34,061 nucleotides of DNA from Solobacterium sp. (GTDB lineage: Bacteria > Bacillota_I > Bacilli_A > Erysipelotrichales > Erysipelotrichaceae): NCBI GenBank assembly GCA_024680365.1, contig JAILCN010000123.1, positions 1-34,061 of the forward strand. The letters run 5' to 3'. Below, in pieces: positions 20,249 through 34,061 of the stretch. Both the position numbers and the translations under genes were made by a program. The notes beneath the pieces are model-generated. The model did not search any database. It was not told the origin of the DNA and was given only the letters and a program-made list of their open reading frames with translations. Each line of letters opens with the position of its first letter. Positions within the stretch are counted from its first letter, which is position 1.

Positions 20249-22606
20249 CTAGAATCCGGCAGCCAGCCCGATCAGCCGGACGATCAGCGCGCAGACCCAG
20301 GCAATGGTGCACTGATACAGGACGATCGACCATGCTCTGCCTCTGCCCAGTTCCCTGCGGATCGCGGAGACAGCCGCGATACACGGCGTATACAGCAGAC
20401 AGAAGACAAGGAAGCCGGCAGCACACAGAGGCGTCATGGCAGCGGATACCGATACGGAGCCAAACAGGACCTGCAGCGTGGAGACAACGCTTTCCTTGGC
20501 AATAAAGCCGGTGATCAGCGCGGTCGCCATGCGCCAGTCGCCGAAGCCAAGCGGCTTCAGCAGCGGCGCGATCAGCGAACCGGTATAGGCAAGGATGCTG
20601 TCTGCCATTTCTTCTTCGCTCAGCATATGGAAGCCGGGATCGAATGTCTTCAGCACCCAGATCACCAGCGTTGCGATCAGAATGACCGTAAATGCCCGGC
20701 GGAAGAAATCTTCCGATTTTTCCCAGAGCAGCTGCATGACGTTCTTCGCTCTTGGCAGACGGTAGTTCGGCAGTTCCATGACAAACGGGACAGCTTCGCC
20801 TTTGAACAGCGTCTTTTTCATTGTCAGCGCCGTGAGCACAGCGATCAGGATGCCGAACAGATATAATCCGACCATCACCAGGGCCGCGTATTTCGGGAAG
20901 AATGCGGCGGTGAAGAATGCGTAGATCGGCAGCTTTGCCGTACAGCTCATAAACGGGATCAGCATGACCGTCAGGTTTCTGTCCCGCTCGGAAGGCAGTG
21001 TCCGGGTACTCATGACGCCCGGCACGCTGCATCCGAAGCCTACCAGCATCGGAACGATCGAACGTCCGGAAAGGCCGAGACGACGCAGCGCCTTGTCCAT
21101 GACAAATGCCACTCTCGCCATATATCCGCTGTCTTCCAGAATGGAAAGGAAGAAGAACAGAAGAATGATGATCGGAATGAAGCTGAGCACGGTGCCGACG
21201 CCTTCAAAGAGACAGTCGCGGATCAGCGACCGCAGCACATCGCTCACTTCCCAGCGCAGCAGCATCGCATCGCAGGCTTCGGCAAGATAACTGATGCCTT
21301 CCGCAAGCAGATCCTGCAGCGGCAGTCCGAGCACATGGAACGTCAGCCAGAACATCAGTGCCATGATGCCGGCAAAGGCAGGCAGTGCAGTATACCGGCC
21401 GGTCAGGATGCGGTCAGCTTTTTCCGAGCGTTCCCGCTCCCTGCTTTCCTTCGGCTTCCGGGCGCATGCCGCAGTCACTTTTTCAATGAATGAGAAACGC
21501 ATGTCCGCGATGGCAGCTGCCCGGTCAAGGCCTCTTTCCTGTTCCATCTGCGAAATGATGTGTTCCAGCATTTCCTGCTCATTGGGTTCCAGCTTCAGTT
21601 CATTGATGATCGCCTGATCCCCTTCCACGCATTTGGTCGCCGCGAAACGGATCGGGATCCCGGCTCTGTCCGCGTGGTCGCGGATCAGATACATGATGCC
21701 GTGCAGACATCTGTGGACCGCACCGCCGTGGTCGTCTTCACCGCAGAAGTCATCACGGCCGCTGAATTCCTGGTATCTCGCGACATGGACCGCATGGCGG
21801 ATCAGCTCGTCAACGCCTTCATTATTCGCAGCGCTGATCGGAATGACCGGAATGCCAAGCATTTCCTCCATCCGGTTGATATCGACAGAGCCGCCGTTGC
21901 CGCGCAGCTCGTCCATCATGTTCAGCGCCAGGACCATCGGAACATGCAGTTCCATCAGCTGCAGCGTCAGATACAGGTTTCTCTCCAGATTTGTCGCATC
22001 CGCGATATCAATAATGCCTTCCGGCTTCTCGCGGATAATATACTCTCTTGAAATGATCTCTTCATCCGTATACGGGGACAGAGAATAGATACCCGGCAGG
22101 TCCATGACCTGGGTATTCGGATAACCGCGGATCACGCCGCTTTTTCCTTCGACGGTCACACCGGGGAAATTGCCCACATGCTGGTTGGATCCGGTCAGCT
22201 GGTTGAACAGCGTTGTCTTGCCGCTGTTCTGATTGCCGGCCAGCGCAAAGCGCAGCTTTCTGTCTTCCGGAAGCGGATGCTCGTCTTTGTGGGAATGGTA
22301 TCTGCCGGCTTCACCGAGGCCGGGATGTTCTTTCTTTTTCGGCAGCGGTTCGGGTTCCGGGGAAATCACCGTTTCCTCTTCACCTGCCAGCTCCACCGTG
22401 ATCTTCGCGGCATCATCCAGCCGCAGGGTCAGTTCGTATCCGTGGATCCGCAGTTCCATCGGATCACCCATCGGCGCCAGCTTGATCATCGTGACCCGGG
22501 CTCCCGGGATCACTCCCATATCCAGAAAATGATTCCGCAGGCCGCCTTCACCGCCGACATTTTCAATTACACAGGTCTGTCCTGCTTTCAGCTCATTCAG
22601 TTTCAT
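20249..22606 (-). CDS. feoB: FeoA-FeoB fusion, iron(II) transporter
   Basis: A 785-residue protein that fuses two Feo parts. Residues 1-75 form a FeoA SH3-like domain (MKLNELKAGQ ... ELTLRLDDAAKITVEL). A charged linker rich in Glu, Pro and Lys follows. FeoB then starts near residue 117 with its GTPase: G1 GNQNSGKTT (124-132), a G2 region with NFPGVTVEG, G3 DLPG (169-172), G4 NMMD (229-232) and G5 ISAAN. The membrane part follows, with gate helices and the GFGCSVPGVMSTRTL segment with its conserved Cys. The start is set at the third of three adjacent candidate codons (GTG at 22612, ATG at 22609 and 22606) since AAGG is then 7 bases away. It is a single-gene unit reading away from the MBOAT gene. 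Confidence 0.93.
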   Translation of the reverse strand: MKLNELKAGQTCVIENVGGEGGLRNHFLDMGVIPGARVTMIKLAPMGDPMELRIHGYELTLRLDDAAKITVELAGEEETVISPEPEPLPKKKEHPGLGEAGRYHSHKDEHPLPEDRKLRFALAGNQNSGKTTLFNQLTGSNQHVGNFPGVTVEGKSGVIRGYPNTQVMDLPGIYSLSPYTDEEIISREYIIREKPEGIIDIADATNLERNLYLTLQLMELHVPMVLALNMMDELRGNGGSVDINRMEEMLGIPVIPISAANNEGVDELIRHAVHVARYQEFSGRDDFCGEDDHGGAVHRCLHGIMYLIRDHADRAGIPIRFAATKCVEGDQAIINELKLEPNEQEMLEHIISQMEQERGLDRAAAIADMRFSFIEKVTAACARKPKESRERERSEKADRILTGRYTALPAFAGIMALMFWLTFHVLGLPLQDLLAEGISYLAEACDAMLLRWEVSDVLRSLIRDCLFEGVGTVLSFIPIIILLFFFLSILEDSGYMARVAFVMDKALRRLGLSGRSIVPMLVGFGCSVPGVMSTRTLPSERDRNLTVMLIPFMSCTAKLPIYAFFTAAFFPKYAALVMVGLYLFGILIAVLTALTMKKTLFKGEAVPFVMELPNYRLPRAKNVMQLLWEKSEDFFRRAFTVILIATLVIWVLKTFDPGFHMLSEEEMADSILAYTGSLIAPLLKPLGFGDWRMATALITGFIAKESVVSTLQVLFGSVSVSAAMTPLCAAGFLVFCLLYTPCIAAVSAIRRELGRGRAWSIVLYQCTIAWVCALIVRLIGLAAGF

Positions 22607-22692
22607 CATCACACCTTGCGACTATCTTACCACAGTCGGAACTGATTAACAGTACTCAGGTCCTGCTTTTTCTGTTCATTCATGCACAGGAT

Positions 22693-25263: not shown

Positions 25264-26577
25264 ATGATGAAGATCACATGCAGAAAAATGGGAATCAACG
25301 GTGAAGGCATCGGCTACATTGACCGCGTGCCTGTCTTCTGTGACGGCGTACTGCCGGGGGAAACGGCAGAAGTCGAGATCACGGAAAAACATGAAACATA
25401 CATGCGTGCCGCAGCGAAGAAGATCATCCGCTTCTCCCCGGTACGGGAACGCTGTGACTGCCGCTGTCAGAAAGCCTGCGGCGGCTGTCCCCTGTTCATC
25501 ATGAAATATGAAGAACAGCTGAAATGGAAGAAAGAACTGCTTGCCGAAGCGCTGCTGAAATACGGCAACGTAAAGCGGCACTTCATCCGTGAATTCCGTC
25601 CTTCCCCGCAGATCACAGGTTACCGGAATCAGTGCCGGCTGCCGGCTGCCATGTTTGACGGAAAACTTGTTACAGGAATGTACAAAGCAGGTTCCAACCA
25701 TTTCATGAGCGTTGCCGAATGCGCCGTTCATGATCCGCTGCTGGAAACCGTGCGCAAAGATGTGCTCCGTGTTCTGAATGATCACCGGATCAGAGCATAT
25801 GACGCCAAGACGCGCAAAGGCATCCGCGGCGTGATGGTCAGAGTCCTGGATGAACAGGCACATGTCACCCTGATCACCGGCAAAGAAAAACTGAACGATG
25901 AAACGATCAGTGATCTGATGCACATTCCATACGTCAAAGGTGTGCATCAGTCCGTCAATACTGAAAAGAATCCTGTCAGTCTTCTGACATCCGTGAAAAC
26001 GATCGCCGGCGATGATCAGATGGAGATCAGCGTGCACGGCATACAGCTGCGTCTTTCCCCTGATTCATTCTTCCAGCTCAACCGTCCGCAGGCAGAAAAG
26101 CTATACGAAACAGCGGTATCGAAGATCGACAGATGCGGTCTGTTGGTCGAAGCTTACTGCGGCGTCGGGGCAATGAGCCTGATGGCTGCCGGCAAGGCAA
26201 AAGAGATCATCGGCATTGAATCCGTCCGGAACGCGGTCAGAAACGCAGAAGAAAACGCCCGCATCAATCACATCACAAACGCGAAGTTCCTCTGCGCTGA
26301 CGCTGCCGACGGACTGTACAAAGCTGCCAGAAACGGCGAGATCGGCTGTCTGCTTGCTGACCCGCCGCGCTCCGGCATGGATGACAACATGATCGAAGCG
26401 ATCATGAAGGTCCTGCCGAAGAAGATCATCTATATCTCCTGCAATCCTGCCACCCTGGCAAGGAATCTGAAGGAGCTGAAGCATCACTATCACGTGGAAT
26501 CCGTGATCCCCTTCGATATGTTTCCAAACACACCGCATATTGAAAGCATCACGGTCCTGGAAAGAGACAACTATTGA
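25264..26577 (+). CDS. rlmD: 23S rRNA (uracil-C5)-methyltransferase, RumA/RlmD (RlmCD) family
   Basis: A 437-residue SAM-dependent RNA methyltransferase. A TRAM-like N-terminal domain (ITCRKMGINGEGIGYID ... EVEITEKH) is followed by cysteines CDCRCQKACGGC (C66, C72, C75) that hold a [4Fe-4S] cluster with a later Cys. The SAM motif is VEAYCGVGAMSL, followed by LLADPPRSGM and the catalytic Cys in YISCNPATLARN. In Bacillota one such enzyme may modify both positions covered by RlmC and RlmD in E. coli. The starts GTG 25258, ATG 25264 and ATG 25267 are close together and the ribosome binding site is weak, so coupling to the DHHW gene, whose stop overlaps, is likely. It ends at a shared terminator. 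Confidence 0.9.
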   Translation: MMKITCRKMGINGEGIGYIDRVPVFCDGVLPGETAEVEITEKHETYMRAAAKKIIRFSPVRERCDCRCQKACGGCPLFIMKYEEQLKWKKELLAEALLKYGNVKRHFIREFRPSPQITGYRNQCRLPAAMFDGKLVTGMYKAGSNHFMSVAECAVHDPLLETVRKDVLRVLNDHRIRAYDAKTRKGIRGVMVRVLDEQAHVTLITGKEKLNDETISDLMHIPYVKGVHQSVNTEKNPVSLLTSVKTIAGDDQMEISVHGIQLRLSPDSFFQLNRPQAEKLYETAVSKIDRCGLLVEAYCGVGAMSLMAAGKAKEIIGIESVRNAVRNAEENARINHITNAKFLCADAADGLYKAARNGEIGCLLADPPRSGMDDNMIEAIMKVLPKKIIYISCNPATLARNLKELKHHYHVESVIPFDMFPNTPHIESITVLERDNY

Positions 26578-26600
26578 AAAAGCGCATCACGCGCTTTTTT
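26577..26600. terminator. Bidirectional terminator between the converging rlmD and Sel1 genes
   Basis: A 9-base perfect stem AAAAAGCGC / GCGCTTTTT with a five-base loop. A T run follows on either strand, so it serves both converging genes; it begins at the last base of the rlmD stop codon and reaches the last base of the Sel1 gene's stop codon. Confidence 0.88.
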
Positions 26601-27250
26601 CAGTCTTCATCAGGTGTTTCCGAAGCAAGTTTCCGAAGTTCTTCCGCTCTTGTACGATCCTGCGCCACACCGCGGCCTTCTTCATACAGCTTCGCCAGTT
26701 TCTCAATGGCAGGCGCATATCTCTGTTTCATGCCGCGTTCATAGTATTCCGCGGCCTTTTTTTCATCACTGGGAACATACGTTCCGCTTTCAAAGTATTC
26801 GCCCATTTTCAAAGAAGCGATGCCGTTGCCTTTCGCAGATGCCTGTTCCATCCAGGCTAGCCCTTCTTCAATGTTCTGTTCTGTGCCTGTTCCTTCCAGA
26901 AAGCACAGCGCGAGATTCCCCATGCCGGAAAGCGATCCGTGCTCTGCCGCTTTCAGGAAACAGGCGAACGCTTTCTGTTCATCCCGCACTTCCGGTTCGC
27001 TCAGCTGAAGCGTTCCGGCTCTGCTTGCTGCTTCCGGATCGCCGCATTCAGCCGCCTTCAGAAACCAGGCTAGCGCCTCTCTGACATTCCGTTCAGGGCC
27101 GTCTCCGAAGTAATACATGCAGGCGATATTGTACATCGCCAGCCAGTTCCCTTCTTCAGCTGCGCTGAGATAGTATTCCATGGCTTTATCGTAGTCATGG
27201 TTCATCAGGTATTCCGTTGCTTTTTCATTCAGTTCTTTTCCGTTCATCAT
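26600..27250 (-). CDS. Sel1-like repeat protein
   Basis: A 216-residue cytoplasmic protein (no signal, no membrane segment) made of about five Sel1-like repeats of roughly 36 residues. Each has the pattern A-x-x-Y/W-x-x-x-A-A-E-x-G with an L/Y-x-G/E-G-x-G turn, as in AMEYYLSAAEEGNWLAMYNIACMYYFGDG, ALAWFLKAAECGD and AAEYYERGMKQ. Such solenoids act as protein-binding scaffolds. The start is set at 27250, where ATGA overlaps the stop of the transglutaminase-like gene; an ATG at 27262 in frame is also possible. It is the last gene of the iron-importer operon, ending at the terminator at 26577-26600. Confidence 0.85.
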   Translation of the reverse strand: MMNGKELNEKATEYLMNHDYDKAMEYYLSAAEEGNWLAMYNIACMYYFGDGPERNVREALAWFLKAAECGDPEAASRAGTLQLSEPEVRDEQKAFACFLKAAEHGSLSGMGNLALCFLEGTGTEQNIEEGLAWMEQASAKGNGIASLKMGEYFESGTYVPSDEKKAAEYYERGMKQRYAPAIEKLAKLYEEGRGVAQDRTRAEELRKLASETPDED

Positions 27251-28578
27251 TCTTTTATGCACAGCAGAGCGTATGCATTTCCTCCTTTGTATGTTACAGG
27301 GATGAGCTGAAACTGATTCAGCCCTTCAAGATATCTGATCATTTCCGCTTCAAAAGCGGCCGGATCACTGCTGTCACAGATGAATTCTGCTTTGTATTCC
27401 CCTTCACAGCAGTCTTCACAGAAAGCAATGAGTTTTTTCAGATCATCCAGGTTTCTGATCTTCAGGGAGATCCCGTCAATATCTGACATTGCCTGATAGA
27501 CGTCATACGGACTGCTCTCCAGTTTTGCGGCAGTCTCCCGGTGTTTCTGCGGCTGATATCCCCATTCGCTTCCGTATGCGGTGTCTTTGTCCGCAAGAAG
27601 AATGGAATAATCCGGAATGATCCTTCCGAGCGTCTTCTCCGCATTCTTCTGACCGTAGGTCGTACAGGATATATACCAGCTGCCGTCCAGTTCCACCATG
27701 TTCCAGGCATGATCTCCGGCTTCGCTGACGCCGGTCGTTCTGAAACAGGGAATGCCCAGCATGTTCAGCAGCAGCGCATACGCCTTGGATTTGCCGTCGC
27801 ACACTGCGCAGTGATTCAGAAACACGCCTTCCAGATAATATGCCTGTTCTCTGACAAGGTATGTATCGGAAGAATATGCCGTATCTCTGTCATATCTGAC
27901 TTCTGTTGTCAGCCAGTCATAGACTGCCTTGATTTTCTGAAAGTCATTCATATCCCTGCGAATCACTTTATGCAGGACATCTTTTGCGGCTGCGTACAGC
28001 GTTTCAGCCATGCTGTTCTTTGCCGGAAGCGGACGGTATCCGTTCATCACCAGATAATACAGCTGCTCGCCGTTTTCACAGCTCACTGCTTCCTTTCCGG
28101 GATCTTCTTCACAGATATAATCACCGTCGGTCCTGTAGTCAAAAGAAGGAACCACCGGTATGTCAGGGATATTTGCAGGAGCGGCAGAAGCGATCTCTTT
28201 TGACATGGAATGACTGATGCCGACGATCCTGAAGTCTGAATAGTATGTATCGTCCAGATGTGCCGCATACACATCCGCCAGATCTGCCGAAGCATATGCT
28301 TTTGTGAATACAGGATATGGATTCAGCAGTTCTGCGGCATATTGCTCATCCACATCAAACCAGACTGTATCACTGATCCGGTAAAATGCCATCCAGTCCA
28401 GGATCTGCCGGAGATCCTCTTCTGAAGTGATCGTCCGCGCCGGCTTTTTCAGCTCCGTTTCCGCCAGATCATCAATAAAGGTCTTCCCTTCTGTGATCTC
28501 TCTGTATCCGCTTCTCTGCTCTTTGATCTGACAGCCGCATAACAGCAGGGCCGCAGTCAGACAAATGATCCGTTTCAT
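27247..28578 (-). CDS. Transglutaminase-like lipoprotein (paralog A)
   Basis: A 443-residue lipoprotein with a signal ending LCGC (Cys16). A transglutaminase-like core lies at about residues 205-310: YDWLTTEVRYD, then CAVCDGKSKAYALLLNMLGIPC with the catalytic Cys (C260), then GDHAWNMVELDGSWY with the catalytic His (H290). In the third triad place, where this family usually reads W-Y-x-x-D-x-T, the sequence is WYISCTTYG, so Asp is replaced by Cys305. A C-terminal domain of about 100 residues follows. It is 1 base overlapped (TGATG) with paralog B and 4 with the Sel1 gene. Function may be cross-linking, proteolysis or non-catalytic binding; none is shown. Confidence 0.82.
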   Translation of the reverse strand: MKRIICLTAALLLCGCQIKEQRSGYREITEGKTFIDDLAETELKKPARTITSEEDLRQILDWMAFYRISDTVWFDVDEQYAAELLNPYPVFTKAYASADLADVYAAHLDDTYYSDFRIVGISHSMSKEIASAAPANIPDIPVVPSFDYRTDGDYICEEDPGKEAVSCENGEQLYYLVMNGYRPLPAKNSMAETLYAAAKDVLHKVIRRDMNDFQKIKAVYDWLTTEVRYDRDTAYSSDTYLVREQAYYLEGVFLNHCAVCDGKSKAYALLLNMLGIPCFRTTGVSEAGDHAWNMVELDGSWYISCTTYGQKNAEKTLGRIIPDYSILLADKDTAYGSEWGYQPQKHRETAAKLESSPYDVYQAMSDIDGISLKIRNLDDLKKLIAFCEDCCEGEYKAEFICDSSDPAAFEAEMIRYLEGLNQFQLIPVTYKGGNAYALLCIKE

Positions 28579-29957
28579 CAGCCGTTCCCTCCGATCACAT
28601 AGATCTGAAGCCGCTGTCCCGCAAAGGTCCCGCCCGAAAAATACATCACGTCCGTGCCTTCTTCTTTCAAAGCGGTGTAAGTCTTCCTCAGAAGATCTGC
28701 ATTTCCGCAGAGTTCGCATTCCACGGCGATCCCGAGTTCTTTCTGCATCCGGACTGCTTCATGCAGGACGGCAAGTGCTTCTTCCGTACTTTCCGGATGA
28801 AGCGTATATTCCCTGCCTTCCGCAGAAATATGTGTATGGCTCCATGAATCATACGGCTCACAGTCACGCACTGCTTCCCTGACTTCCGGCAGCGCGTCAG
28901 AAACATACGGCCAGCCGTCCATATTTGTATCAAGATCCGTTAACATGTAGTTCATCGTATGATAATCAAGCCGTTTTCCATTTTTTGTCTCCGCGGTCAG
29001 CGATCCATACGTCGGACAGCTCAGGTACCATTGTCCGTCACATCTGACATACAGATAGGCATGCCCGCTGTCACCGTTTCTTGCGCCGATGTGGTGCGCC
29101 TTAATTCCGGCAAGCCGGCACAGCAGCAGGATCTCCTTGCACATGCCGTCACAGACCGCATGTTCATCCATGAGTGCCCCTTCCAGATAAAACACTCTGT
29201 TCTGTCTGCCGCGGGCGTCCATATACATCAGTGTCGTGTAATCATAATGCACATTCTGCAGAACATAGCGGTAGACGGCACTGTACAGTTCTGTTTCGCT
29301 GTCAGTGCATCCTTTGAACAGAGAAAGGATGCCGGTCGCTTTTTTCAGGATCTCGTATGCAGGCGTATTCTCTTCAGCAGCCGGTATATATCCGTATTCT
29401 GCCGCGTAAGCCAGCTGTTCACTGTTTTCACAGAGCAGATATCCTCTGTGAACTGTGTGCTGCACAGGCAGAGTCATATATGTATACGATGACCGGTCCC
29501 CTTTCAGAAGATCCGCACAGAGATCCAGCGATCTGACTTCTCTGATCTCCGGAAGCGGCGGCGACTCCAGGGCATACTCCCTCAGAGGCGCAAAACGTAT
29601 GCCGATATACCCTTCCGCAAGACGTGAATCATCATATGCTTCATAAAACGAATGACCAAGAAGTGAGATCTGCAGAGCTCTGCCCAGGGTTCCCGCCGGA
29701 TCACTGCGCAGCTCATCATACAGACTTCCTTCCGCCTTCCACCAGTGCATGTCCGTTTCACCGAGAAAGATCACACTGTCAGCCTCTTCTGCCAGTTTCT
29801 GCAGCGTGTCCGCTGTATCACTGACAGTGATCTCCGCATATGATATGTCTCCAGGCAGATCGATGATGCCGTCCTTCGCTTCCGGCAGTGACGCTTTCCT
29901 TCCTGCACAGCCTGTCATCAGGATCCCTGTCAGTATGATCAGTGCCGTCTTTTTCAT
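28578..29957 (-). CDS. Transglutaminase-like lipoprotein (paralog B)
   Basis: A 459-residue lipoprotein (signal ending MTGC, Cys17) with the same build as paralog A, though clearly diverged. The core is FYLEGALMDEHAVCDGMCKEILLLC with the putative Cys nucleophile (C269), then GHAYLYVRCDGQWY with His299, and WYLSCPTYG, where Cys314 stands where Asp is expected, exactly as in paralog A. A short shared block before the core, LCENSEQLAYAAEYGYIP, matches SCENGEQLYYLVMNGYRP in A. Its ATG overlaps the stop of the iron-importer ATPase gene as ATGA, so it is translated with that importer. Confidence 0.82.
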   Translation of the reverse strand: MKKTALIILTGILMTGCAGRKASLPEAKDGIIDLPGDISYAEITVSDTADTLQKLAEEADSVIFLGETDMHWWKAEGSLYDELRSDPAGTLGRALQISLLGHSFYEAYDDSRLAEGYIGIRFAPLREYALESPPLPEIREVRSLDLCADLLKGDRSSYTYMTLPVQHTVHRGYLLCENSEQLAYAAEYGYIPAAEENTPAYEILKKATGILSLFKGCTDSETELYSAVYRYVLQNVHYDYTTLMYMDARGRQNRVFYLEGALMDEHAVCDGMCKEILLLCRLAGIKAHHIGARNGDSGHAYLYVRCDGQWYLSCPTYGSLTAETKNGKRLDYHTMNYMLTDLDTNMDGWPYVSDALPEVREAVRDCEPYDSWSHTHISAEGREYTLHPESTEEALAVLHEAVRMQKELGIAVECELCGNADLLRKTYTALKEEGTDVMYFSGGTFAGQRLQIYVIGGNG

Positions 29958-30751
29958 CTGTTTTTCTCCAGCAGGTCATAGCTGATGCACAGCGGCTTGC
30001 CGTTTTCCGGATCGCTGACGATCCTGCCGTCAATGCGGAAACATTCCGCCAGCATTTTTTCCGTAAATACTTCTGACGGGACCCCATAGGCAAATACATC
30101 ACCGGATCTCATCGCCAGCAGTCTGTCGGAATACCTTGAGGCAAGATTGAGATCATGAAGCACCATGATGATCGTGCACCCATCTTCCTGATTCAGCTTT
30201 TTCAGCAGTTCCAGCACTTCCAGCTGATGGCACAGATCCAGATATGTCGTCGGCTCATCCAGCAGTATGATGCCGGTCTGCTGGGCAAGCGCCATGGCGA
30301 TCCAGACACGCTGTCTCTGGCCGCCGGAAAGATATGCGATCTCCCGGTCTTTAAATTCATACATATTTGTCTGCTTCAAAGCCCATTCAACGATCTCCCT
30401 GTCTTCTCTGGTCAGTTTTCCGAAGCCTTTCTGATAGGGAAAACGGCCGTAGGAAACCAGCTCCGTGCAGGTCAGGGTGCCGGGTGCGCTCGGAGTCTGA
30501 GGCAGGATCGCCATCTGTCTGGCAATTTCTTTGCTGCTCATCTCCCGGATATCCGTCTGATTGATGATCACTGTTCCGGAAGCGCTTGGAATGATGCGTC
30601 CGACTGCTTTGAGCACCGTGGACTTTCCGCATCCGTTGGCGCCGATGATCGATGTGATCTTTCCTTTTTCAAAAGCCACATCAAAATCTCTGACAATAAT
30701 CGTTTTTTCATATCCGACCGCAAGATGGCCGGTCTTTACAGCATAGTCCAT
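29954..30751 (-). CDS. Iron-chelate ABC transporter ATPase, FepC/FecE type
   Basis: A 265-residue ATPase with Walker A GANGCGKST (37-45), signature YLSGGQRQRVWIAMAL (140-155) and Walker B IILLDEPTTYLD, typical of siderophore and heme importers; the last strand carries DLNLASRYSDRL with the switch His region. GAGG lies 11 bases before its ATG, inside the end of the preceding permease gene. Its stop overlaps the start of paralog B. Confidence 0.93.
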   Translation of the reverse strand: MDYAVKTGHLAVGYEKTIIVRDFDVAFEKGKITSIIGANGCGKSTVLKAVGRIIPSASGTVIINQTDIREMSSKEIARQMAILPQTPSAPGTLTCTELVSYGRFPYQKGFGKLTREDREIVEWALKQTNMYEFKDREIAYLSGGQRQRVWIAMALAQQTGIILLDEPTTYLDLCHQLEVLELLKKLNQEDGCTIIMVLHDLNLASRYSDRLLAMRSGDVFAYGVPSEVFTEKMLAECFRIDGRIVSDPENGKPLCISYDLLEKNR

Positions 30752-30757
30752 CAGTCA

Positions 30758-31783
30758 TTACCTCGCTTTCACCAGAAGATACAGGAAATACGGAACCGCC
30801 AGGATCGAAACAAAGATTCCGGTCGGTATATTGATGAATACCGGAACGTTTTCAACAAGAATATTAGCCGAAACGATGATCACAGCAGAAACGATGCCGG
30901 CTGCCGGAATCAGATAACGGGCATCCGTTCCGACAATGCGGCGGGCAATATGCGGACCGATCAGTCCGAGAAAGAAGAAGTTGCCGCCGAACGCGACCGA
31001 AGCGGAAGATAATCCTACGGCTAGAAACGCCAGAAAGGAAAACGATGTCTTCATGCTGACGCCGAGTCCGGTCGCCGTATCATAGCCGAGATGGATCACG
31101 TTCAGTGTTCTTGCGTTGTACATCAGCACGGCCAGGAATCCTGCCAGCCAGACTGCCAGGATCAGTATGTACTGCCACTGTGTGCCCCACAGCTCTCCGG
31201 ACTGCCAGCGCTGGATGAATTCCAGCTGTGTTTCATCCAGTACATACATGGCAAAGGTGCCGGCGGCCGAGTAGCACGCGCCCATGGCAACACCGGTCAT
31301 AATGAGCTTGGTGGATGAGATCGGCTTCCCCTTCTTCGTGCCGAGAAGATAGATGATCAGGGAAGACAGCAGGCCTCCTGCCAGCGCCAGTACAGGAAGA
31401 AGCACCGGCTGATCGATCTTTTTTGCGATGAGGGCAACGTACAGCGTCACGAACAGGGATGAACCGTCCGCCACGCCCAGGGTGCCCGGTGAAGCGAGAT
31501 CATTGTGCAGAAGATTCTGCATGATCACGCCGCTGGCTCCCATGCCCGCTCCCACGAGCACTGCCAGGCAGAGTCTGGGCAGACGGTAATCAAATATGAC
31601 CATCCGCCCACGCGGGCTGCCTCCTCCAAAGAAGGAAGCCAGAACATTTCTGATCGGAACTGCATACGGTCCAAGACAGCATCCAAGTACAAATATGAGG
31701 ATCATCCCTGCCAGCAGAAGCAGGATCCTGCGGATCTTTGTTCTGTGCCGCTGTTCCGGCGTCATATACTTCCGCTCAGTCAT
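30758..31783 (-). CDS. Iron-chelate ABC transporter permease, FecCD type (second)
   Basis: A 341-residue membrane protein with about ten hydrophobic segments, of the FecCD/BtuC fold. The stretches GVIMQNLLHNDLASPGTLGVADGSS and FFLGLIGPHIARRIVGTD are family marks. The start is 31783, with AAGGAG nine bases before it; it overlaps the upstream permease stop by 8 bases. It would pair with the other permease in the import channel. Confidence 0.92.
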   Translation of the reverse strand: MTERKYMTPEQRHRTKIRRILLLLAGMILIFVLGCCLGPYAVPIRNVLASFFGGGSPRGRMVIFDYRLPRLCLAVLVGAGMGASGVIMQNLLHNDLASPGTLGVADGSSLFVTLYVALIAKKIDQPVLLPVLALAGGLLSSLIIYLLGTKKGKPISSTKLIMTGVAMGACYSAAGTFAMYVLDETQLEFIQRWQSGELWGTQWQYILILAVWLAGFLAVLMYNARTLNVIHLGYDTATGLGVSMKTSFSFLAFLAVGLSSASVAFGGNFFFLGLIGPHIARRIVGTDARYLIPAAGIVSAVIIVSANILVENVPVFINIPTGIFVSILAVPYFLYLLVKAR

Positions 31784-32816
31784 ACAGCTGCTCTCCTTCC
31801 TGCTTTCTGGAGACATATACGAAGAACGGCACACCGATCATCGTGATCAGCAGACCGATCGGGAACTCCATGCCCGGATGAATGTTTTTTGCCGCAAGAT
31901 CGACTGTGCTGACAAACAAAGCTCCGTAGACGCTGCATACCGGCAGCACCAGCCGATAGTCCGTGCCGACCATATAGCGGGAAATATAGGGGATCATCAG
32001 ACCGATATATCCGACCGGACCGATAATGATCACCGCTACAGCCGAAAGGATCAGGACAACGATCGTCGAAAGCGTACGGATCAGAGCAACGCTTGCGCCA
32101 AGTCCTCTGGACACTTCCTCGCCGAGATTCATCACTGTCAGCGATCTTGAGATGATAATGGACGTGATCATGCCAAAGGCAAAGAACGGCAGCGCAATGA
32201 ACAGATCTTTCCAGATCGTGTTTGCGGAAGAACCGCTGGTATAACGGATCATCTGATTCATCAGACCGTTTTTCAGGATGACAGCTGTTGTCAGAGATGA
32301 CAGCAGCGTAGAGATCGCCATGCCGGAAAGCACCATGCGGTCAGATGTGATCCTTCCTCTTCCCGCATAGGCGATCACATAGATCAGCAGTGTGACCAGT
32401 CCTGCCCCGAGGGCAGAGATGCCCATCTTGGCAAATCTCCCGGCTTCCGGAATAAATGCCATGACGATGACAACACCGAGTGTGGAACCAGCCGAGATCC
32501 CCATGATGCCGGAGTCTGCCATCGGGTTTTTTGTGGTCCCCTGCATGATCGCTCCGGCTGTTGACAGCGAAGCGCCGACGATGACGTCCGCGAGAAACCT
32601 CGGCAGCCGGATATCCCGGACGGTCAGATGCGTGAAATTATCTCTGTCAAATGACAGAAAGGATGCTGCGATATCCTGAAAGCTGATCTCGGAAGCGCCT
32701 TTTTTCAGCGTCAGGATCATAACAGCGAAAAGAGCCAGAAGCCCGATGGTAAAGAACATCGCGAATCTGGCTGTATTTGACTTTTTTGGTTTTGTACCGG
32801 AAGCTGTACGATTCAT
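31776..32816 (-). CDS. Iron-chelate ABC transporter permease, FecCD type (first)
   Basis: A 346-residue permease with the same fold as its neighbour; ADVIVGASLSTAGAIMQGTTKNPMADSG and YIGLMIPYISRYMVGTD are the matching family segments. It starts 10 bases after the stop of the binding-protein gene with an AAGG site about eight bases from the ATG. The N-terminus has a short basic stretch before the first membrane segment. Confidence 0.92.
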   Translation of the reverse strand: MNRTASGTKPKKSNTARFAMFFTIGLLALFAVMILTLKKGASEISFQDIAASFLSFDRDNFTHLTVRDIRLPRFLADVIVGASLSTAGAIMQGTTKNPMADSGIMGISAGSTLGVVIVMAFIPEAGRFAKMGISALGAGLVTLLIYVIAYAGRGRITSDRMVLSGMAISTLLSSLTTAVILKNGLMNQMIRYTSGSSANTIWKDLFIALPFFAFGMITSIIISRSLTVMNLGEEVSRGLGASVALIRTLSTIVVLILSAVAVIIIGPVGYIGLMIPYISRYMVGTDYRLVLPVCSVYGALFVSTVDLAAKNIHPGMEFPIGLLITMIGVPFFVYVSRKQEGEQLYD

Positions 32817-32826
32817 GGTTCCGGCC

Positions 32827-33828
32827 TTATTTCACCTGTCCGGCTTTTTTCAGCGCTTCCATGATCTGTCCGTACTGGTTTTCAAGCAGAATGACGCCTT
32901 TCTGGGCATAAGGAGTAATATCGATCACACCGACCCGGTCTTCTCTGACCGCGTTCAGTGCCTGCCAGCCGACATTCTCACTTACATAGGTCGAAACAGT
33001 TTTCTCACCGAAGCCGGCATAGATCACCATGTCTCCTTCATAATCCTTCAGCTTCTCAGCTGAGATCGCTTCATACGCAACACCGCTTTCATCTTTCATG
33101 AACGCTTCCACCTGCGGAAGACGTTTGATCCCTGCATAATCAAACAGGATCGTATTCATGAACCAGCCTCTCTCCGGCGGAATCGAGATCGCACCCATAT
33201 ATGTATAGATCGTCAGAGTCTTGTCAGAAAGGCCGAGTTTCTTCAGCTCACTGACCATTTCCTCACGGATCGTATCCGCATAGGCGATCAGCTTTTTCGC
33301 ATGTTCCTGCAGACCGAAGATCTCGCCGATATAGGACAATCTCGTTTTGAAATCCGTGGAATCTGTATAGAGCGGAATCACCGGGGCGATCTTAGAAAGA
33401 GCTTCAATATTGGAAGCACTCATCTTCTGATTGACCAGGATCAGTTCCGGCTCATAGGAAAGCACTTCTTCCGGGGAGAACGGCGTACTGTTCATCAGCG
33501 CTGACGCCCCGTCATAGAATGACTCATATCCGGTGATGTCGGTTGAGCCTTCATAAGCAAGCAGCGGAATGCCAAACGCCACGACATCCTGTGAACCGAA
33601 CAGGCAGACGATCTTTCTGGTGTTCATGTTATATGTCACTTCATCCCCGTTCAGTGTTGTAAATGTATTCTCTTTGTATTCTTCAGGCCGTGTGTCTTCC
33701 AGCTTCGGGAACTCTCTGAGATCCGCTTCTGTCCCGCTGCTGTTTCCGCTGTCTGCGCCCGAGCAGCCGCCAAGCATCACTGCACCAAGCATAAGCGCGC
33801 ACATACTTTTCATCATTTTATGCTTCAT
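32827..33828 (-). CDS. Iron-siderophore-binding lipoprotein of the ABC importer
   Basis: A 333-residue surface lipoprotein of the FhuD/BtuF class. The start is 33828 with AGGAGGATAGT just before it; the signal ends LGGC (C22). Family marks are RKIVCLFGSQDVVAFG, EVLSYEPELILV and the long central helix (about residues 170-200) that joins two lobes. It should capture a siderophore or heme-like complex for the permeases next to it; the ligand itself cannot be told. It lies after a short leader ORF whose stop codon is one base from its ATG. Confidence 0.9.
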   Translation of the reverse strand: MKHKMMKSMCALMLGAVMLGGCSGADSGNSSGTEADLREFPKLEDTRPEEYKENTFTTLNGDEVTYNMNTRKIVCLFGSQDVVAFGIPLLAYEGSTDITGYESFYDGASALMNSTPFSPEEVLSYEPELILVNQKMSASNIEALSKIAPVIPLYTDSTDFKTRLSYIGEIFGLQEHAKKLIAYADTIREEMVSELKKLGLSDKTLTIYTYMGAISIPPERGWFMNTILFDYAGIKRLPQVEAFMKDESGVAYEAISAEKLKDYEGDMVIYAGFGEKTVSTYVSENVGWQALNAVREDRVGVIDITPYAQKGVILLENQYGQIMEALKKAGQVK

Positions 33829-33829
33829 A

Positions 33830-33889
33830 CTATCCTCCTGTATGCACAAACACCTTGCGCATATCGCACAGGGTGTTCCTGCATTTCAT
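33830..33889 (-). CDS. Short leader ORF (19 residues) with internal hairpin, upstream of the siderophore-binding gene
   Basis: The ORF begins at an ATG (33889-33887) with GAGGAG five bases before it, one of the best ribosome binding sites in the window, and reads MKCRNTLCDMRKVFVHTGG before TAG at 33832-33830. One base then separates the TAG from the siderophore-binding ATG, and the downstream gene's AGGAGG lies inside the last codons. Within it, arms AACACC/GGTGTT and TGCG/CGCA form a 10-base-pair stem with an internal loop. It could be a leader peptide coupling translation or an ordinary spacer that happens to be open; the peptide has no known relatives that I recognise. Confidence 0.45.
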   Translation of the reverse strand: MKCRNTLCDMRKVFVHTGG

Positions 33890-33898
33890 CCTTTCTCC

Positions 33899-34061
33899 TC
33901 ACTCCGGAAGCTCAATTCTGATCTCAACATTGCCATTGACAGCAAGACCTTCAAACTCAGCTCCCTGGAACCCTATGACCTTTGTTTCACCGGCCTGTTT
34001 TCCGCCGATGAAGACCGTAACTTCCGCGTTTTCCAGACCGTCAATGTAGTTTTCGTTATAC
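33899..34061 (-). CDS. Unidentified protein, C-terminal 53 residues only
   Basis: The minus strand reads an open frame to the TGA at 33901-33899, ending with GNVEIRIELPE; the rest lies beyond the right edge. The visible part is rich in Val, Gly, Glu and alternating hydrophobic residues, suggesting beta strands, possibly a late extracytoplasmic domain. The siderophore-binding gene follows 70 bases later with no T-run terminator between them, so it may belong to the same iron-linked operon. The family is not recognisable from this fragment. Confidence 0.6.
   Translation of the reverse strand, partial: YNENYIDGLENAEVTVFIGGKQAGETKVIGFQGAEFEGLAVNGNVEIRIELPE

Follow-up and report, generated by a model that had tools for sequence, protein, structure and literature searches.

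A rare and probably iron-regulated importer operon in Solobacterium that includes triad-altered transglutaminase-like lipoproteins and a giant repeat protein

Why an operon for an iron-chelate importer should also carry genes for two transglutaminase-like lipoproteins and a Sel1-repeat protein is a question raised by a stretch of Solobacterium sp. DNA (contig JAILCN010000123.1; 34,061 nt, hereafter the window). An initial annotation of this DNA had linked the lipoprotein and Sel1 genes to the importer and supposed that the lipoproteins process a peptide-linked iron source or modify cell-wall or host proteins. Here, the cassette was compared between the genome of origin, labelled G000, and three other carriers, G048, G033, and G003. 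The comparison favors an iron-repressed system for surface capture and import of iron, a reading that is probably correct as a whole but in which a relay through the lipoproteins is the weakest step; an importer under iron regulation, taken by itself, is highly likely. The cassette genes lie on the minus strand and are transcribed in the order in which they are listed.

33899 to 34061, minus strand: giant repeat surface protein, C-terminal 53 residues; the translation, YNENYIDGLENAEV...RIELPE followed by a stop, agrees with the C-terminal end of its G048 counterpart (L055 1470-6398)
32827 to 33825, minus strand: substrate-binding lipoprotein, FeuA/FhuD-like; Peripla_BP_2 (Pfam), E 2.6e-16; lipobox LGGC
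31776 to 32816, minus strand: FecCD-family permease 1; PF01032, E 8e-79
30758 to 31834, minus strand: FecCD-family permease 2; PF01032, E 2.5e-77
29954 to 30751, minus strand: FecE-type ATPase; ABC_tran, E 8e-30; top NCBIfam model FecE, E 2.9e-92, under its cut-off
28578 to 29957, minus strand: transglutaminase-like lipoprotein 1 (P0001); Cys269, His299, and Cys314 replacing Asp; Cys176; lipobox MTGC
27247 to 28578, minus strand: transglutaminase-like lipoprotein 2 (P0002); Cys260, His290, and Cys305 replacing Asp; Cys167; lipobox LCGC
26600 to 27247, minus strand: Sel1-repeat protein (P0003) with an ATG start and no signal peptide; PF08238, E 1.3e-36, six repeats
about 26577 to 26599, minus strand: intrinsic terminator, read directly in the sequence; 9-bp stem AAAAAGCGC/GCGCTTTTT, loop GTGAT

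Inspection of the gene junctions revealed an ATGA overlap between fecE and the P0001 gene and TGATG overlaps at both the P0001/P0002 and P0002/Sel1 junctions. The terminator hairpin 3' of the Sel1 stop is accompanied by a T run; a pattern scanner did not list this hairpin and found no minus-strand terminator-like site within 26600-29957. The chain of overlapping genes ending at one terminator was thus found as it had first been described. For the binding lipoprotein, the ATG at 33825 was preferred as the start over a TTG at 33849.

The importer genes have the makeup of a FecBCDE-type iron-chelate ABC system, with a Peripla_BP_2 binding protein, FecCD permeases, and a FecE-type ATPase in one operon. 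The FecBCDE, FhuBCD, and FeuABC importers share with the cassette a binding lipoprotein, a pair of FecCD permeases, and a FecE ATPase; the cassette differs from them in that the same operon also encodes the giant repeat surface protein, transglutaminase-like lipoproteins, and Sel1. When a profile of the binding proteins of the four carriers was compared with solved structures, the nearest were FeuA (2why, E 3.7e-15) and FhuD (E 1e-14), which represent the catecholate and hydroxamate classes, respectively. Similarity to these proteins, together with the operator described below, suggests that the binding protein takes up a ferric chelate or haem. The importer parts reached no equivalog cut-off in NCBIfam that would point to one ligand.

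To establish how widely the cassette occurs, genomes of the family (n = 273), order (n = 316), and class (n = 356) were searched by a fast first pass and then scored, with ∼350 genomes sampled each at class and phylum level. The binding protein was present in exactly 4 of the 273 family genomes, and the transglutaminase-like gene was present in the same four. Outside G000, full-length relatives of P0002 (50-68% identity) were confined, within the family and order, to three congeneric species; the Sel1 proteins of these carriers were 54-73% identical to that of G000. In all four carriers the binding-protein gene is followed by two permease genes, the ATPase gene, one or two transglutaminase-like genes, and finally Sel1, an order kept at protein identities of 50-90% and thus beyond chance. 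The P0001 type was found in G000 and G048, and G033 and G003 carry the P0002 type alone; the pair is therefore not essential to the cassette. Three of the four carrier genomes are fragmented or incomplete, and in G048 the operon is spread over three contigs; the G003 genome consists of one contig. In G048, a frameshift close to the AVCDG motif splits the P0001 orthologue (L042 2-1245), through either assembly error or decay.

Comparison of RpoA sequences placed G048 closest to G000 (98% identity), followed by the non-carriers G049 (91%) and G004 (90%) and then by the carrier G003 (88%). The DNA flanking the cassette differs among carriers: surface-protein genes flank the G033 copy, and several transposase-like genes lie on both sides of the G003 copy (L045 280-1398, 12210-17635; L073). 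Given that non-carriers are closer to G000 than G003 is and that the flanks differ, the distribution is patchy, and the cassette is apparently inherited or transferred as one unit. It is rare and is found in gut/rumen-type Erysipelotrichaceae, although further carriers may exist in the class or phylum given samples of ∼350 genomes. A search of genome contigs gave one relative, on a RUG597 contig, and plasmids gave weak matches to the core alone.

Evidence for iron control came from the DNA upstream of the giant gene. The palindrome GTTAG-N6-CTAA(C) occurs 5' of this gene at two sites in G000, two in G048, and one in G033, which has an ATTAG variant as well; in G003 this position is taken by a palindrome that is longer but related. 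The spacing is that of the half-site TTAGGNNNNCCTAA, which has been put forward for DtxR/IdeR (PMC8464063). TTAG-N6-CTAA sites were spotted by eye in upstream regions and then counted against a reversed control. The G000 genome contained 20 strand matches to GTTAGN6CTAA (∼12 distinct sites) versus 2 for the control, and the G048 genome contained 16 full palindromes versus 0. The operator also precedes feoAB in G000, feoA-feoA-feoB in G048, and two feo loci in G033, and in G000 it additionally lies 5' of a ZIP transporter gene and of a DUF3793-flavodoxin pair. Both the operator geometry and the presence of feoAB among the targets are shared with the DtxR, IdeR, and MtsR regulons. Because the giant gene and feoAB have this operator in common, the cassette is very probably under iron control through a DtxR-type operator, and it appears to turn on under iron scarcity. 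The GTTAG-N6-CTAAC operator is absent within the window, as expected if the promoter sits on another contig. Fur control was considered and rejected, as no good Fur box was found 5' of the giant gene.

The gene immediately 5' of the binding-protein gene in G048, G033, and G003 encodes a surface protein of 1025-1642 amino acids, and in G033 the two genes overlap. In G000, the giant gene begins near the end of a second contig (G000:C162, L072 9456-14090), and its C-terminus lies at the window edge. The operon thus extends upstream over the contig end into the giant repeat protein gene and is longer than first described. A hairpin at 33856-33881 (minus strand), in the interval that separates the giant gene from that of the binding protein, is a possible attenuator or processing site and has no obvious counterpart in G048.

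Most of the giant proteins have a lipobox-like signal at the N-terminus (LVSC, LFSC, or IKGC); in the G003 protein the N-terminus is a plain membrane segment. Neither LPXTG nor a hydrophobic tail is present at the C-termini. The proteins are composed of repeats of ∼100 residues that match no known family in Pfam or among PDB sequences. In one repeat type, termed His-x-Tyr, the His and Tyr are invariant across all 16 copies, 15 of which share a second His; this type likewise has no PDB sequence match. The His-x-Tyr repeat was present in the same four genomes alone within the family and in no other class genome searched, and viral contigs contained no relative of it. The giant protein also drew low-scoring Pfam and NCBIfam matches to Ntox27, PASTA, ThiS, and others; these were scattered, mutually unrelated, and mostly under cut-off, and were set aside as noise. 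In G033, an S-layer-homology protein with one His-x-Tyr repeat is encoded directly 3' of the Sel1 gene (L044 4143-7697); it contains segments with a DAVSSAT motif resembling an FMN-attachment site and a weak FMN_bind match (E 0.03).

The arrangement of a multi-domain surface protein, a binding lipoprotein, and a FecCD-type importer under metal control is common to the cassette, the Isd system of Staphylococcus aureus, and the Shr-Shp-HtsABC system of Streptococcus pyogenes, in which hand-over of haem from Shr to Shp has been shown (PMC2266757). By contrast, Pfam scans of the giant proteins gave no match to the NEAT domain, no sortase open reading frame was present in the operons read, and, as noted, the repeats match nothing in Pfam or the PDB. 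The layout parallels Isd and Shr-Shp-HtsABC, but the surface parts tested belong to neither family.

The transglutaminase-like proteins are paralogues with 28% identity (E about 1e-24), as had been proposed. P0002 matched Transglut_core (PF01841) with an E of 6.2e-10 (39.8 bits), and P0001 was borderline (E 1.9e-4; 22.1 bits versus a gathering threshold of 23). Both carry a lipobox, consistent with the predicted location at the cell surface, and the lack of a signal peptide in the Sel1 protein agrees with the cytosolic location assigned to it. The core motifs AVCDG, containing the catalytic Cys (Cys260 in P0002), and HAW/HAY, containing His290, are retained, with HAY in P0001 where the P0002 type has HAW. 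However, 15 residues past the His, the slot of the catalytic Asp is occupied by Cys in every cassette copy (SC[TAP]TYG), so that the expected Cys-His-Asp triad is replaced by Cys-His-Cys. By contrast, all 20 control domains of the genus that had a readable motif keep the Asp; in a few rows of this set the Cys motif was printed too early, with no effect on the His-to-Asp reading. Asp is also found at the third position of S. pyogenes TglA (9crn), the closest solved relative by sequence search; a Foldseek match to 9crn was used solely because the sequence search agrees with it.

Among the six nearest relatives outside the order, Asp was present in the three that could be resolved. These three are domains within larger proteins, and no importer adjoins them in the ∼1.5 kb of DNA read on each side. 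Homologues away from importers do exist as distant core matches, with Asp where resolved, but every full-length relative found sits in the cassette. A second cysteine (Cys167 in P0002, within CEN-x-EQL) is present in all cassette copies and absent from the three resolved outsiders. That the two cysteines were gained jointly suggests that they may form a disulfide or a common ligand site with Cys260 and His290. The cassette proteins thus share the core with catalytic Cys and His with the transglutaminase-like superfamily, TglA being the best match in both sequence and fold, and differ from it by the Asp-to-Cys change, the second cassette-specific Cys, and co-inheritance with an iron importer. 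The Mycoplasma MAG6410 family transglutaminase-related lipoprotein (NF045980) is also a lipoprotein with the same core segment (P0002, E 5e-23), but the match covers ∼140 residues of the 622-position model, and the scores of 81 bits for P0002 and 24 fall far below the cut-off of 450.

Given the Cys in place of Asp in every cassette copy, it would be unsafe to credit the lipoproteins with ordinary transglutaminase or protease activity. One alternative is nevertheless an active role as cysteine transamidases, in which the lipoproteins would cross-link the giant protein or anchor it, Cys-His being sufficient for catalysis and the third residue, Cys, serving a polarizing or redox-control role. In the Isd operon, sortase B is responsible for anchoring IsdC, and the gene slot here recalls the Isd layout of surface protein, binding protein, permease, and cysteine transpeptidase. 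P0002-type proteins retain AVCDG and HAW unaltered, LPXTG is missing from the tail of the giant protein, and the closest solved relative is TglA. It has further been proposed that, in S. pyogenes, transglutaminases have an S-layer-like protein as a target (PMC13361665), which we count in favor of this alternative. Against it, the Asp that the genus relatives keep is lost in every cassette copy, most giant proteins would already be anchored by the N-terminal lipobox-like signal, and P0001, with HAW changed to HAY, scores under the Pfam cut-off. Anchoring or cross-linking by the lipoproteins is therefore possible but doubtful.

The processing role proposed in the initial annotation, here read as cleavage or deamidation of a host protein or of an iron source linked to a peptide, fares less well. 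Transglutaminase-like cores do include proteases and deamidases, and the lipobox would place the proteins outside the cell, but the changed triad in all cassette copies and the lack of a peptide-transport gene in the cassette make such processing improbable. That the lipoproteins and Sel1 protein are downstream passengers with no role in import is very improbable, since read-through co-transcription is common but the gene order is the same in four species despite differing flanks, the genome distribution is that of the importer, and overlapping junctions recur, with 4-base overlaps in G033 at both the fecE/transglutaminase-like and the transglutaminase-like/Sel1 junctions. The trio, always adjoining the importer and lying behind a DtxR-type operator common to feoAB, does therefore belong with it, as first supposed. 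The giant repeat protein, missed in the initial annotation, is the more likely surface partner.

An iron-repressed capture and import system can be explained by the following minimal model. At low iron, the repressor would leave the operator and the cassette would be derepressed. The giant protein would then bind an iron complex through its His-x-Tyr repeats and hand it to the FeuA/FhuD-like binding protein, with import through FecCD/FecE to follow, and the Sel1 protein could serve as a cytosolic scaffold. The least certain steps concern the lipoproteins, which may have given up Cys-His-Asp catalysis; the Cys-His-Cys centre, together with the second Cys, might instead bind or reduce an iron ligand or hold a disulfide, making them a membrane relay or accessory binding proteins. 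That the core has turned into a metal or thiol-redox site passing iron or an iron chelate from the His-x-Tyr repeat, as a new class of surface receptor domain, to the FeuA/FhuD-like importer, in a Gram-positive route unrelated to NEAT, is offered tentatively, as a rather unlikely possibility.

Several observations weigh against this model. The possible ligands range from catecholate and hydroxamate to citrate and haem. The AT-rich genomes G003 and G033 show no genome-wide operator enrichment (17 versus 15 and 11 versus 9 per strand), and the G003 cassette site is the longer variant; iron control in these two carriers rests on site position, because the counts hardly exceed the control. DtxR-type control is proposed here from the operator sites. 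The AlphaFold model of P0002, built from a three-sequence input, was poor (pLDDT 44), and no structural claim is based on it. Finally, cysteine enzymes with a changed third residue may be active, so the Asp-to-Cys change does not establish loss of activity.

Surface iron capture by gut Gram-positive bacteria that lack NEAT proteins is poorly known. We know of no description of such an operon, and the open-licence literature yielded no paper that joins a transglutaminase-like protein with an iron importer or that describes TglA. The cassette offers a compact, testable set of parts, comprising an undescribed repeat domain found with the importer alone and a triad-changed transglutaminase-like family. 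It also suggests that some proteins annotated as transglutaminases may have taken on a new role in handling metals.

Further genes were noted in connection with the operator. The DUF3793-flavodoxin pair of G000 is located at L082 (G000:C149), and the operator suggests a part for DUF3793 in the iron response. An ABC ATPase and large permease pair lies behind the operator in G000, G033, and G003 (L090, L095, L100) and may be a further common regulon member. Within the window, a FeoA-FeoB fusion gene at 20249-22612 (minus strand) is separated by ∼4 kb from the point where the iron operon ends and has no GTTAG-N6-CTAAC operator; the same arrangement occurs in G048 (L043 3-950).

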